From Rhodobacterales bacterium (GTDB lineage Bacteria; Pseudomonadota; Alphaproteobacteria; Caulobacterales; Hyphomonadaceae): a stretch of 36,825 nucleotides of DNA. This document shows, piece after piece, positions 8,418 through 14,438 of the stretch. Within the stretch, counting starts at the first letter, position 1; each line of letters starts with the position of its first letter. The DNA is taken from positions 85,417 to 122,241 of the forward strand of contig JACXUV010000005.1 in assembly GCA_014763715.1 (NCBI GenBank), given 5' to 3'. A model generated the notes under the pieces. It did not search any database and was not told the origin of the DNA. It worked only from the letters and a program-made list of their open reading frames with translations. Position numbers and translations under genes: made by a program.

Positions 8418-8449
8418 GGGGGAGAGCGGCGTGATGGCCGCTCTCCCCC
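8418..8449 (-). terminator. strong hairpin after the AhpD-like gene
   Basis: A perfect 13-base-pair stem (GGGGGAGAGCGGC / GCCGCTCTCCCCC) with a 6-base loop lies 38 bases after the stop of the AhpD-like gene and before the TetR start. It is the strongest hairpin in the window but lacks a clean T-run, so it may attenuate rather than fully stop transcription into the regulator gene. A second smaller hairpin (GCCC/GGGC) lies at 8457-8468. Confidence 0.65.
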
Positions 8450-10020: not shown

Positions 10021-10797
10021 ATGAGTTATTTCACAACTGAACAAATCAACGAGCTCCAGAAAAAGTTAAATGGGGCACGCAGTAAAGCTGATAACATTCT
10101 TCATAATTGGACCAGCCTAGAGCTTCGCTCTGAACGCGCAAAAGAATTCGCAAGACATGGTGTTGCTCGGCGTGTTCAAATTTTGCGTCGCTGTCTTGAA
10201 ATAATTTTCGAACAAATGCCACCAGCAACGCAAGAAGCGCCAAGCCGCCACGACTTGCTAGACGCAACGATCTCTATACAAACATTCATTATGAATGTTT
10301 TCGGCGTATTAGACAATATAGCCTGGACCTGGATTGAAGAGTCTGGATTATGCAAGCCCGATGGGGCAAAACTTAGACCTACTGAAGTTGGGCTGACTCC
10401 ACGCTTTGAGTATATTCGAAATTCTCTTAGTAATGAGACACAATCACTATTAAACGAATATAGAGATTGGTTCGATTACATAATCGATCTCCGACATGCA
10501 TTGGCCCACAGAATCCCTTTGTATGTACCACCCAACTGCATCGACTCTGAGCATGTTGAGGAGTACCAGCAATTGGATCAAAGAAAGTTCGAAGCAATTC
10601 TCGCTAGCCGCTGGGATGAATTGAGGGAGATTCTTTCCAGACAAAACGAACTTCAACACTTTAAGCCTTTTATGCGACACTCATTTTCTGAACGAGCACA
10701 AACAATAGTGGTGCATCCTCAAATTCTATCCGACCTTGAATGCATTGACTCGATCAGCACAGCAATACTCAAGGACATCTCAAATCTGACTAATTAG
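10021..10797 (+). CDS. hypothetical protein with HEPN-like RX4H motif, AT-rich
   Basis: A 258-residue protein, predicted all-helical and soluble, of no named family known to me. Residues 158-163 read RHALAH, fitting the R-x4-6-H signature of HEPN RNases, and the motif sits after a long helical region as in HEPN domains; it is followed by RIPLYVPP. The gene is visibly AT-richer than its surroundings, uses many AT-ending codons and has no Shine-Dalgarno before its ATG, all signs of recent transfer. It stands alone, convergent with the YbaK-type gene. HEPN proteins often serve as toxins or antiviral RNases, but an RX4H match alone is weak, and a non-nuclease role is equally possible. Confidence 0.7.
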   Translation: MSYFTTEQINELQKKLNGARSKADNILHNWTSLELRSERAKEFARHGVARRVQILRRCLEIIFEQMPPATQEAPSRHDLLDATISIQTFIMNVFGVLDNIAWTWIEESGLCKPDGAKLRPTEVGLTPRFEYIRNSLSNETQSLLNEYRDWFDYIIDLRHALAHRIPLYVPPNCIDSEHVEEYQQLDQRKFEAILASRWDELREILSRQNELQHFKPFMRHSFSERAQTIVVHPQILSDLECIDSISTAILKDISNLTN

Positions 10798-10870
10798 AGT
10801 CTTCGTCACCCTTATGCAGTCTGACTCATTCCCCCATTTATACAGATGCACTCTATACGGATAACAATCC

Positions 10871-11335
10871 CTACCCCAGCTTCGTCACGTCGACCCATTC
10901 GGCGCGGGTGAGGTCGGCGAGGCGGGTGGGGGTGATGCGGATGGCGGCGTTGGGGGCACCGCCGGCAGGGAAGACTTCCGGGAAATCCTTCAGCGACACG
11001 TCGCAATAGACCGGCAGGTCCTGCGCCAGGCCGAAAGGCGTGACGCCGCCGACAGGGTGGCCGGTGCAGGCCTCGACCTGCGCGACATCCAGCATACGGG
11101 CCTTGGTGCCGAAGCGGGCCTTGTATTTCGCATTGTCCAGCCGGGCATCGCCGCGCGTGACGAGCACGATGACGCCGTCCCCCACCTGCAGCGACAAGGT
11201 CTTGGCGCTCTGCCCCGGCAGCACGTTCAGTGCCTCTGCCGCCAGCTGCACCGTGGCGGTGCTCTGGTCCAGCTCCATGACTTCGAGATCCGGGGCATGC
11301 CGGGCGAGGGCATCCCTGACAGAGGCGAGACTCAT
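10871..11335 (-). CDS. YbaK/EbsC family aminoacyl-tRNA editing protein
   Basis: A 154-residue single-domain member of the YbaK/ProX editing family, which hydrolyses misacylated tRNAs such as Cys- or Ala-tRNA(Pro) in trans. The conserved lysine of the substrate pocket is Lys45 in GQSAKTLSL, and the family motif VGGVTPFGL is present at about 110-118. The exact tRNA substrate cannot be assigned. Its ATG overlaps the stop of the TetR gene upstream by four bases (ATGA), so translation is probably coupled and both genes share the operator-bearing promoter at 11977-12040. Its stop faces the AT-rich gene to the left. Confidence 0.85.
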   Translation of the reverse strand: MSLASVRDALARHAPDLEVMELDQSTATVQLAAEALNVLPGQSAKTLSLQVGDGVIVLVTRGDARLDNAKYKARFGTKARMLDVAQVEACTGHPVGGVTPFGLAQDLPVYCDVSLKDFPEVFPAGGAPNAAIRITPTRLADLTRAEWVDVTKLG

Positions 11336-11970
11336 TCCGTACGCCCCTCTTCCGGCCGGGACGCGGCATCAAGCGGCTGCGCGCCGCGCTGTTTCAGGTC
11401 TGCCAGCAGGGCCCGGATGGCCCAGACGCTGGCACGGGCGATCTCGTCGCCCGTCAGGTCCCACTGGTCGCGCATCTCGCGCCAGGCAAAGCCGCTGCAC
11501 AGGAGCTGCAGCACCGCAGTCGCCTGGCGGGCATCCTCTTCGTTCAACCCGCTGACGGAATCGGCGAAGAGGGCGGAATAGGCGGCGACGCGCTCTGCCT
11601 TGCGCTCGTTGCGCATGGTGCGGCCCTCGACGCTGGACATGGCCATGATCATCGCGTCCGCCTTCTCATCGAACGCGCGGAAATGGTCTCGCAGGCCGCC
11701 GCCGAGCAACTCGTCCAGATCGTCCGGCATGGCGCCGGTATGGGTCAGCAACGTCCAGATGCGCGCGCGGAGGGCCGCCTGGTCCTCATAGCGGCGATAG
11801 ACCGTGCGGCGCGAGACGCCAGCCTCCTCGGCCACCCGGTCATGGTTCAGGATGCCGCCCTCGCTCATCACCTTGAGGAGTGCGGCGTCGAGCTTGTCGT
11901 CTTTGGCCTGGGCTGGCTGTATCTGGGCAGGCGGTTCCGCCGCCTGAATCGGTCTGGTCTCTTGTGTCAT
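11332..11970 (-). CDS. TetR family transcriptional regulator, probably leaderless
   Basis: A 212-residue TetR-type regulator with helix-turn-helix around RVAEEAGVSRRTVYRRY (about residues 44-60) after a proline- and glutamine-rich N-terminus. The open frame continues 20 codons upstream to 12030, but that would translate through the operator palindrome. The ATG at 11970 lies 6 bases after a TATCAG -10 box, with TTGACA 17 bases further up, so transcription should start at or next to the A of the ATG and the message be leaderless (inference). It overlaps the YbaK-type gene by four bases. It is expected to repress itself and the divergent outer-membrane protein gene through the shared inverted repeat. 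Confidence 0.87.
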   Translation of the reverse strand: MTQETRPIQAAEPPAQIQPAQAKDDKLDAALLKVMSEGGILNHDRVAEEAGVSRRTVYRRYEDQAALRARIWTLLTHTGAMPDDLDELLGGGLRDHFRAFDEKADAMIMAMSSVEGRTMRNERKAERVAAYSALFADSVSGLNEEDARQATAVLQLLCSGFAWREMRDQWDLTGDEIARASVWAIRALLADLKQRGAQPLDAASRPEEGRTE

Positions 11971-11976
11971 GACAGC

Positions 11977-12040
11977 CTGATACGCCGTGGCACAAATTGT
12001 GTCAAACCGTATTGACACAATTTGTGCCATCCGTCATATG
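11977..12040. promoter_or_regulatory. divergent promoters embedded in a perfect 40-bp inverted repeat
   Basis: Arms 11989-12005 (GGCACAAATTGTGTCAA) and 12012-12028 are perfect reverse complements around the 6-base spacer ACCGTA. Each arm also contains a small palindrome (CACAA-N-TTGTG), so two operator units are likely. Each arm carries a perfect TTGACA -35: the minus-strand promoter is TTGACA (12005-12000), 17 bases, TATCAG (11982-11977); the plus-strand promoter is TTGACA (12012-12017), 17 bases, CATATG (12035-12040). One TetR-bound operator would thus cover both -35 boxes. Confidence 0.85.
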
Positions 12041-12110
12041 CCCGCGCTCCGCAGCGGCATTGACCCGCCGGGGCGGCACTCCCCCTGCAATCCAGAACGG
12101 ACCCTGACCC

Positions 12111-12698
12111 ATGAAACTCAAGACTTCCATCGCGTGTGCGCTGGCCGCTGCCGCATTCGCCCCCACCGCCATCAGCCAGACCTTCAGCGGCCCCTATGTC
12201 GGCGTCGAAGCCGGATACGAAACCTTCCCGGAAGACATCGATGGCGGCATCTATGGCGCCTATGCCGGCTGGGACGTGGCGATCACGGACAATTGGGTGA
12301 TCGGCCTCGAAGGCCGCATTGCCGAGCCGGGCGCCTCGTTCCGCCTGTCGCGCGATACGGGCACCGGCACGGCCGTCTCCAAGGTGGACCTCGACTCCCA
12401 ATACGGGATCAGCGCCCGCCTCGGCCGCGTCTTCGCCGGGAACACGCTGGTCTTCGCCCAGATCGGGTACGAGCAGTTTGACGTGGACGCCTCGATCACG
12501 ACCACACCCAAGCCGCCCTGCACCCAGTGCGCCCCGACGATTAACGACTTCTCCTTCGAGGAAGAGATGCCGACAATCGGGGCTGGTGTCGAACGCGCGC
12601 TCTCGGAAAAGATCCGGGCACGTGTGGTCTACACCTATGGCGACGGCGACGCCTATGAGCGCAACCGCTTCAGCGTCGGCCTGGCCTACAGGTTCTGA
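12111..12698 (+). CDS. outer membrane beta-barrel protein
   Basis: A 195-residue protein with a signal peptide (residues 1-22, cleavage near AIS-QTF) followed by alternating beta-strand segments and a C-terminal phenylalanine in GLAYRF, as expected for a small eight-stranded outer-membrane barrel of the OmpA/porin-like type. The mature N-terminus FSGPYVGVEAGYETF matches the opening strand of this superfamily. Two cysteines in PPCTQCAP (about 137-144) lie in a predicted loop. It is the first gene to the right of the TetR-controlled divergent promoter, with a 70-base leader, and is followed by a strong hairpin. It may be an envelope protein responding to the same signal as the regulator. Confidence 0.82.
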   Translation: MKLKTSIACALAAAAFAPTAISQTFSGPYVGVEAGYETFPEDIDGGIYGAYAGWDVAITDNWVIGLEGRIAEPGASFRLSRDTGTGTAVSKVDLDSQYGISARLGRVFAGNTLVFAQIGYEQFDVDASITTTPKPPCTQCAPTINDFSFEEEMPTIGAGVERALSEKIRARVVYTYGDGDAYERNRFSVGLAYRF

Positions 12699-12708
12699 CC
12701 GGCAAAAC

Positions 12709-12741
12709 GGCACGGGGGAGTGAAATCGCCTCCCCCGTGCC
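12709..12741 (+). terminator. hairpin after the beta-barrel gene
   Basis: A perfect 12-base-pair stem (GGCACGGGGGAG / CTCCCCCGTGCC) with a 9-base loop starts 11 bases after the beta-barrel stop. There is no T-tract. The GTG at 12720, the longest possible start for the oleate hydratase frame, lies inside this hairpin, which argues against that start. Confidence 0.65.
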
Positions 12742-12813
12742 AGCCGGACAGGGCCAGCCGGACAGGGCGAGGCGGAACTGGCCGAAGCGGAACTGGCCGA
12801 GGCGGAACTGGCA
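12740..12813 (+). repeat. short tandem repeats in the leader of the oleate hydratase gene
   Basis: Two identical 14-base units (CCAGCCGGACAGGG) at 12740-12767 are followed by three 15-base units of the form GARGCGGAACTGGCM at 12769-12813. They sit between the hairpin and the TTG start at 12861. The 14-base period is not a multiple of three, which supports this being non-coding leader DNA prone to slippage. Confidence 0.75.
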
Positions 12814-12860
12814 AGACAGCCAGCCTTGTGAGACACTGCCCCTGTTCGGGAGGCAGGAAT

Positions 12861-14438
12861 TTGAAACGGGATCCGGGCCGGCCAGCTCATTATCACCTTG
12901 TCGGCGGCGGGATCGCCTCTCTCGCAGCAGCGGTCTTCCTGATCCGCGATGCGGGGATTGCGGGCGAACAGATCACCATCTTCGAGAAGGAGACGCAGTT
13001 CGGCGGCAGCCTCGACGGGTCGGGCGATGCCGGCCTTGGCTACCTCGTGCGCGGCGGGCGCATGTTCGAGAAGAACTTCGTCTGCACGTTCGACCTGCTG
13101 CAATCCATCCCCAGCGGACTGCCGGACGGCCTGTCGGTGAAAGAGGACATCTTCGCTTTCAACCAAGCCGTACCCGGATCTTCGAATTGCCGGCTCATCA
13201 GGCATGGCGCAAAGGCCGACACATCCCTCGGCCTTCGCCTGCGCGACATGAGGGACCTGCTGCGCCTGACGCAGGCAGACGAGAAGACGCTGGACGGGAA
13301 AGCCATCGACGCGTGCTTCGACGCGGCATTCTTCCAGTCGAACTTCTGGATCATGTGGAGCACGATGTTCGCGTTCCAGACATGGCACAGCGCGATCGAG
13401 CTCGCGCGTTACCTGAAGCGCTTCATCCACCTCTTCCCCGGCTTCACCCGCATGGAAGGCGTGCTAAGAACGCGCTTCAACCAATACGACTCCCTGATCG
13501 CCCCGCTTCTCGCCTGGCTGTCGGCGCGGGGCGTAAAATTCCAAATGGACACGGATGTCATCGACGCGACGGTCACGGCGGGCGGCGGCGGCTTCAGCAT
13601 CTCGGCGCTCCTGCTGGAACGAGCCGGACAGAGCGAGATTGTCCCGGTCGCGGAAAACGACCGCGTCTTCTTCACGCTGGGGTCGATGACGGCCAACACG
13701 GTGACCGGCTCCAATCAGGCAGCCCCACCGGTGCCTGAGACGGACAGCGCCTGGAGGCTCTGGAAGACTCTGGCGGCGAAGGCCCCGCTCTTCGGGCGGC
13801 CGGACGTCTTCTGCCCGGATGCGAGCCGCACGCGCTGGGAATCCTTCACGGTGACCCTGAAGACCCGGGCCTTTGTCGATCATATGGAACGCTTCTCCGG
13901 CAACCGCACCGGCACGGGCGGGCTGGTGACGATTGCCGATTCCGGCTGGATGCTTTGCTTCGTCATGGTCCACCAGCCGCATTTCCGTCAGCAGGCAGAT
14001 GGCACTTACGTCTTCTGGGGCTATGGCCTGTTGGGCGACCGGGAGGGCGACTTCGTGAAAAAGCCGATGGCAGAATGCACCGGCGATGAAATCCTGGCAG
14101 AACTTGCGGGCCATTTGCGCCTAGGCGATCAGGCGGAGGCGATGTTCGAGGGCGCCATCGTCCGGCCCTGCATGATGCCGCTGATCACCAGCCAGTTCAT
14201 GCCGCGCCGCGCGGGCGACCGGCCGGATGTCGTGCCCGAAGGCGCCCGCAATTTCGCCTGCCTCGGGCAGTTTTGCGAACAGAAGCACGATGTCGTCTTC
14301 ACGGTCGAATACTCCGTCCGCTCCGCCATGGCCGCCGTCCATGCACTGGCAGGCGGCAAAGCCCCGCCGCCCGTCAAGCGGACAGACCGGAACCCGCTGG
14401 TGATCGCGAATGCGCTAAGGACGATCTTCGTCGGTTAA
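12861..14438 (+). CDS. ohyA: oleate hydratase
   Basis: A 525-residue FAD-dependent fatty acid double-bond hydratase, which adds water to oleate-type cis-9 unsaturated acids to give 10-hydroxy acids. The FAD fold opens with VGGGIASLAAAVFLIRDAG near residue 14; family motifs DLLQSIPS, AFQTWHSAIE and ARYLKRFIH follow, the last holding the tyrosine expected in catalysis. The usual GGRE motif reads GGRM, so the catalytic-type glutamate is a methionine, as I recall for the monomeric Rhodococcus-type subgroup. The frame is open back to a GTG at 12720, but that lies in a hairpin; TTG at 12861 has a GGGAGG ribosome-binding site 7 bases upstream and starts right before homology. It may share regulation with the beta-barrel gene. 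Confidence 0.9.
   Translation: MKRDPGRPAHYHLVGGGIASLAAAVFLIRDAGIAGEQITIFEKETQFGGSLDGSGDAGLGYLVRGGRMFEKNFVCTFDLLQSIPSGLPDGLSVKEDIFAFNQAVPGSSNCRLIRHGAKADTSLGLRLRDMRDLLRLTQADEKTLDGKAIDACFDAAFFQSNFWIMWSTMFAFQTWHSAIELARYLKRFIHLFPGFTRMEGVLRTRFNQYDSLIAPLLAWLSARGVKFQMDTDVIDATVTAGGGGFSISALLLERAGQSEIVPVAENDRVFFTLGSMTANTVTGSNQAAPPVPETDSAWRLWKTLAAKAPLFGRPDVFCPDASRTRWESFTVTLKTRAFVDHMERFSGNRTGTGGLVTIADSGWMLCFVMVHQPHFRQQADGTYVFWGYGLLGDREGDFVKKPMAECTGDEILAELAGHLRLGDQAEAMFEGAIVRPCMMPLITSQFMPRRAGDRPDVVPEGARNFACLGQFCEQKHDVVFTVEYSVRSAMAAVHALAGGKAPPPVKRTDRNPLVIANALRTIFVG

Follow-up and report, generated by a model that had tools for sequence, protein, structure and literature searches.

Among the described systems that come closest to the locus analysed here is the tetR/tetA control region, in which a repressor and its target are served by two operators that overlap the promoters, as laid out in the accessible part of one account (PMC3037858). 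A related arrangement is that of AcuR, the TetR-family autorepressor of the acuR-acuI-dddL operon in Rhodobacter sphaeroides. The available portion of its description places the -35 element, the -10 element and an inverted-repeat operator within 36 bp of the ATG and describes the autorepressor mRNA as leaderless, and the authors name the tetR of Tn1721 as another leaderless case (PMC3017554). The ligand of AcuR is acrylate.

The locus described here lies in a stretch of 36,825 nucleotides from a Rhodobacterales bacterium whose genome belongs to the genus Hyphomonas (contig JACXUV010000005.1, positions 85,417 to 122,241), and "the window" below means this whole stretch. Judged by sequence, the locus in all likelihood controls the expression of a self-regulating TetR-family repressor and of a divergent target. 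Its sequence has the divergent two-operator anatomy of the tet type, with promoters and binding predicted; the likeness to tet is one of layout by description, operator sequence and spacing lying outside the comparison. The tet operon differs in its target, TetA, which transports tetracycline, and in having two tetR promoters, as modelled in the part of PMC3037858 available. AcuR, compared likewise by description and not by sequence, heads an operon together with its targets, whereas the window has a divergent target and two palindromes. The nearest counterparts are found in relatives, where the same TetR, operator pair and placing of the tetR ATG go with a gene for a VOC-fold protein. The window, in contrast, has no VOC gene beside the switch and an outer-membrane protein (OMP) gene instead, and Hyphomonas sp. 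CY54-11-8 has both VOC and OMP genes there.

The inverted repeat and its promoters

The repeat occupies 11988-12029 and is perfect, with two 18-nt arms that are 100% complementary and stand 6 nt apart: the left arm at 11988-12005 (TGGCACAAATTGTGTCAA) and the right arm at 12012-12029. The first-pass annotation had recognized a perfect repeat of 17+6+17; the repeat is real and perfect, and its arms had been drawn one pair short of their true size of 18+6+18. The span then reported, 11977-12040, takes in the repeat plus both -10 positions. With loops of up to 10 nt allowed, this is the longest perfect inverted repeat in the window, and the next unrelated one, at 8418, has 13-nt arms and a 6-nt loop. 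In 15 first-order Markov sequences of window length the arms reached at most 11 nt, and the analytic expectation for perfect arms of at least 18 nt is 1.7e-5 per window.

Each arm had also been described as a small palindrome in itself, and so it is, in imperfect form (CACAA-A-TTGTG). Written as GRCACA-NNN-TGTGYC, this 15-bp form gives two palindromes with centres 25 bp apart. Predicted operator A (11989-12003, GGCACAAATTGTGTC) overlaps the -35 element and the spacer of the tetR promoter, and predicted operator B (12014-12028, GACACAATTTGTGCC) overlaps those of the divergent promoter. The inner ends of both arms read TTGACA, so that two -35 hexamers stand back to back with 6 bp between them. 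The predicted tetR promoter, on the minus strand, joins the TTGACA at 12000-12005 to a -10 TATCAG at 11977-11982 (4 of 6 matches to TATAAT), and the predicted divergent promoter, on the plus strand, joins the TTGACA at 12012-12017 to a weak -10 CATATG at 12035-12040 (3 of 6), each across a 17-nt spacer. The earlier observation of a TTGACA in each arm, 17 bases from a -10 position, was therefore correct on both strands. The accompanying claim of two consensus promoters stands for the -35 elements, both TTGACA, and fails for the -10 elements, both weak (TATCAG, CATATG). A promoter scan of 10700-13000 that required at least 9 of 12 matches and a T at the last -10 position came up empty, so only the -35 halves can be called consensus. 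Across a set of 21 loci the tetR-side -10-like hexamers match TATAAT at 1-4 of 6 positions, and their placing is accordingly loose.

The peptide MAQIVS had been noted behind upstream start codons on both strands. It is present in both frames (11332-12030, minus; 11987-12481, plus), as follows from the symmetry of the repeat, with one of the two starts being GTG rather than ATG. At window positions 11962-11974 the tetR start codon is covered by another TTGTGTCA and by the palindrome TGTCATGACA; neither was seen at the same place in L012 (Novosphingobium mangrovi) or L013.

The repressor and the genes around the switch

The gene for the TetR-family repressor (11332-11970, minus strand, 212 aa) has its ATG at the predicted transcription start. 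Its stop codon is overlapped by the gene for a YbaK-like aminoacyl-tRNA editing protein (10871-11335, minus), which probably shares the tetR transcript; such a gene also lies 3' of tetR in L013 and was not found downstream of tetR in L012. On the other side, an outer-membrane beta-barrel protein gene (12111-12698, plus; 195 aa; Pfam OMP_b-brl, E=4.9e-19) is the presumed divergent target, and its orthologues adjoin the same switch in L012 and L013. Just 3' of its stop codon, a GC-rich stem-loop with 12-nt arms (12709-12741, plus) possibly ends the OMP transcript; it received no intrinsic-terminator score in our scan.

An oleate hydratase gene of the MCRA family (Pfam E=3.3e-185) follows 3' of the OMP gene, in window 12720-14438 on the plus strand. 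By eye, its start may be the TTG at 12861, and short imperfect tandem repeats fill 12741-12815 between the two genes. This gene was considered as a co-regulated one and set aside: it was not found in the L012 and L013 stretches examined, and the stem-loop intervenes in the window.

The assignment of the repressor to its family draws on several kinds of comparison. Pfam TetR_N gives the window protein 22.4 bits, below the cut-off of 24, and its relatives score on both sides of that line (31 bits for L018 and 25.5 for L012, above; 15.7 for L015, below). At E<=1e-3, TetR_N matches 14 of 20 alignment members, the window protein among them, with a best value of 1.4e-8. A profile search of PDB sequences with the TetR alignment returned TetR-family proteins, the best being AefR (E=5.6e-6). 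The structural model of the window protein (pLDDT 91.1) has eleven helices and the all-helical fold of a TFR. Among the 50 Foldseek matches listed are TetR class D, MtrR, FasR, EilR and TtgR; the E-values in that list are modest, one being at or below 1e-3, and TM values run from 0.38 to 0.57.

The TetR proteins of 19 related loci are 45-74% identical to that of the window. In the window's own genome and 60 relatives, 61 in all, close homologues of TetR (E<=1e-20) are confined to two genomes, which are also the only two with the OMP (E<=1e-10); four more have weaker TetR matches. The tree groups the window with Hyphomonas CY54-11-8 (94/90, not starred) and then with Novosphingobium mangrovi (100/96); its outgroup rows are long branches. 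A mobile origin of this TetR was considered and rejected, viral contigs having given nine pattern stretches, none of which encodes a TetR relative. Plasmid records gave 20 matches, and the 15 listed are at 29-35% identity.

Conservation of the operator pair

The related loci of the first set comprise one from Hyphomonas and 18 from Sphingomonadaceae and Erythrobacteraceae, with L007 and L013, which are the same contig, counted once. A TGTCAA-N-TTGACA pair lies 5' of the TetR gene in all 19. Addition of the window and of L063, the latter included because it matched, makes the set of 21 loci. The pair finder demands TGTCAA-N(4-8)-TTGACA, so those twelve letters are invariant by definition; the demand was failed by none of the 19 first loci and by one of 10 later ones. 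The outer half-sites tell more, as they sit in the promoter spacers, where polymerase makes no demand on the sequence. TGTG[CT]C is present on the divergent side in 21 of 21 loci and on the tetR side in 19 of 21. Hyphomonas CY54-11-8 and the window are identical over the whole 42-letter repeat, taken in the tetR direction.

An independent set came from a TetR-profile search of 397 genomes of the family of Sphingomonas mali (L018), which gave 16 matches at E<=1e-20: four from the original 19, L063 and L064, and 10 new ones. The operator pair is found in nine of these 10 new loci and is absent from the tenth, L087. The outer half-sites are exact on the divergent side in seven of the nine and on the tetR side in six, the rest being one letter off. 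The letters between the arms are free, and the distance between them is nearly constant: 7 nt in 16 and 6 nt in five of the 21 loci, 7 nt in eight and 5 nt in one (L086) of the nine later loci, and hence 7, 6 and 5 bases in 24, five and one of all 30. Left out of the 30-locus counts are L008-L011, L064 and L087, which have no TGTCAA-N-TTGACA pair.

A strict form of the pattern was also run against 296 genomes of the order, giving seven matches and none in the reversed control. The pattern was derived from these loci, and for one so long a control of zero is expected. By contig place and spacer letters, the seven genomes are those of L017, L018, L019, L020, L023, L025 and L027; all belong to the original 19 loci, and the scan is therefore not independent. 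All seven are among the nine genomes of the 296 with a TetR match; the rest of the 296 gave no occurrence of the pattern.

Copies elsewhere in the genomes

The first-pass annotation had proposed a genome search for a wider regulon. In the window's genome, GRCACANNNTGTGYC has no second copy; the exact repeat occurs at a single place, and allowing up to three mismatches adds three places. The best of these (two mismatches, L003) lies inside a long open frame, and a regulon elsewhere in this genome was set aside. The operator pattern was also sought in 14 of the 19 relatives' genomes and lies at the TetR locus in every one of them. Beyond that locus, two of these genomes have three single sites between them, against eight sites in five genomes for the reversed control. 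There is, in addition, a second double palindrome in Sphingomonas sp. S2M10 (L045:1500-1542), with a centre distance of 26 bp. Its neighbours are a gene for a PEP-CTERM protein on one side and one for a TonB-receptor plug domain on the other; one of its two TTGACA hexamers is absent, and it is possibly an extra target.

A predicted leaderless tetR transcript

The place of the tetR start codon is as regular as the repeat itself. The ATG was taken as the first in-frame one at least 20 nt 3' of the -35 start (in L063 it was picked by eye), and its distance from the first T of the -35 element is 33-36 nt in 20 of 21 loci and 34-37 nt in all nine later ones. Over all 30 loci, 29 thus fall within 33-37 nt; the exception, L029, has 76 nt. 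The divergent VOC gene, by comparison, starts 53-73 nt from its own -35 (18 of 18). In 17 of 21 loci the best -10-like hexamer ends 5-7 nt 5' of the tetR ATG, and this hexamer, weak as it is, puts the ATG at the predicted +1. No in-frame start exists further upstream in eight of the 21 and four of the nine later loci; such starts do exist in the other 13, including the window, and in the other five. The first ~25 residues of the TetR proteins align poorly, which argues that the fixed place of the ATG reflects more than the conservation of a coding start.

The distance between ATG and -35, the place of the -10, the lack of upstream starts and the contrast with the VOC gene together suggest that the tetR mRNA is probably leaderless, its transcript beginning at the A of the ATG. 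Leaderless transcripts occur in the wider group as well; for Zymomonas, the accessible part of one study counts them in 119 of 2,675 TSS-gene pairs (PMC7566282).

How the switch may work

In the mechanism that we favor, a TetR dimer would bind each palindrome and hide both -35 elements from RNA polymerase. Repression would turn down tetR-ybaK in one direction and the OMP gene in the other, and a ligand would free both operators. The -35 hexamers are 6 bp apart, so either dimer, or polymerase at either promoter, would probably hinder the other. The leaderless tetR transcript would keep repressor synthesis low. The first-pass annotation had one operator under the adjacent TetR controlling both directions. 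Conservation and linkage strongly support a divergent switch under that TetR, as far as sequence can speak to it; its two palindromes, one per promoter, are not plainly one operator. It had also called the switch unusually economical; placing operators on top of divergent promoters is an arrangement already known.

The two palindromes may nevertheless act as one composite operator, on which two TetR dimers bind together, the 25-26 bp spacing answers a need of protein-protein contact and a single binding event closes both promoters. We regard this as a possibility, on the doubtful side. The arms are 6 or 7 nt apart in 29 of 30 loci though the letters between them are free, and the second pair of S2M10 keeps a 26-bp centre distance with one TTGACA absent. 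The spacing in L086 is 5 nt, however, and a nearly fixed spacing could equally serve the mutual blocking of polymerase. Moreover, 25-26 bp is about 2.4-2.5 helical turns, which would set the dimers on roughly opposite faces of the DNA, and the two operators of the tet operon are without sign of cooperativity in the available text of PMC3037858.

That some regulator other than the adjacent TetR binds the repeat is quite improbable. The DNA-binding domain of the window TetR is a weak Pfam match and its binding is a prediction, which leaves some room for another protein. The pair is nonetheless present in 28 of 28 loci found by way of TetR (profile E<1e-45 or first set), the operon forms apart, and the palindrome has no second copy in the window's genome. 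In the distant relative L008, the helix region (GERTVYRH) and the palindrome (TGACAGT-ACTGTCA) differ together. Least credible of all, to the point that we would give it hardly any weight, is a repeat that works as an RNA hairpin (a terminator or attenuator) or is the remnant of a mobile element. Arms as perfect as these could fold; yet the repeat lies upstream of both predicted transcription starts and has no terminator score, and a mobile remnant fits poorly with the lack of another genome copy and with the absence of the pattern from viral contigs.

The VOC partner and its layouts

The gene that faces tetR in 18 of the 19 first loci encodes a protein of 152-162 aa, and Pfam matched neither of the two members scanned. 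A structural model of the protein from L013 (pLDDT 87) resembles VOC-fold enzymes, for example the ArsI C-As lyase. A VOC-like divergent frame was seen in eight of the nine later loci; for the ninth, L086, the stretch analysed takes in little upstream DNA. In the window and in Novosphingobium mangrovi the OMP gene is next to the switch and VOC is absent there, and in Hyphomonas CY54-11-8 the VOC gene comes first and the OMP gene after it. A search of the window's genome, run without a positive control, gave no match to the VOC gene at E<=1e-3. Since the tree groups the window with CY54-11-8 and only then with Novosphingobium mangrovi, the two absences may be two losses.

Other layouts of the pair exist. 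Searching across the class turned up the VOC gene in nine of 289 genomes. Three of these have a TetR homologue immediately upstream of it, preceded by a different long inverted repeat; in the remaining six no TetR homologue was found near VOC within the 3.4-kb loci. L065, L066 and L067 are TetR-VOC neighbours with different inverted repeats (17+7+17 in L065 and L066, 11+7+11 in L067); the repeat of L066 overlaps the listed TetR start at 857, and by eye the same is true of L065 and L067. The order tetR and then VOC is found in L008 and L087. In L087 (965-2103, minus strand) the two genes make up an operon, and close to the start of tetR there is a palindrome of yet another sequence; judged by eye, 36 nt again separate the tetR ATG from a TTGACA. 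In L064 (1036-2184, minus) one frame of 382 aa is a fusion of TetR and VOC: TetR_N scores 38.5 bits and the C-terminal part aligns to VOC, a hint that the two work together.

The pair thus occurs divergently over a double operator, as a tetR-VOC operon and as one fused gene, and these three layouts suggest a place for VOC in the sensing circuit. The protein might make, destroy or present the ligand, or touch the repressor. On such a reading, which we put forward as speculative and would not wager on, the window would derive from a scattered TetR-VOC module by loss of VOC and transfer of its promoter to the OMP gene. In the open-licence literature we found no report of a divergent TetR-VOC pair in Sphingomonas and no evidently related report of a TetR-VOC fusion regulator.

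The regulatory switch is genuine, well conserved and of a familiar type. It offers a clean test case: the repressor has one address in its genome, the -35 hexamers also serve as predicted operator half-sites, and in 29 of 30 loci the tetR start codon apparently stays at +1. The pairing and fusion of TetR with VOC form the best lead, a clue to what may be the role of a VOC-fold family for which Pfam matched neither of two scanned members.
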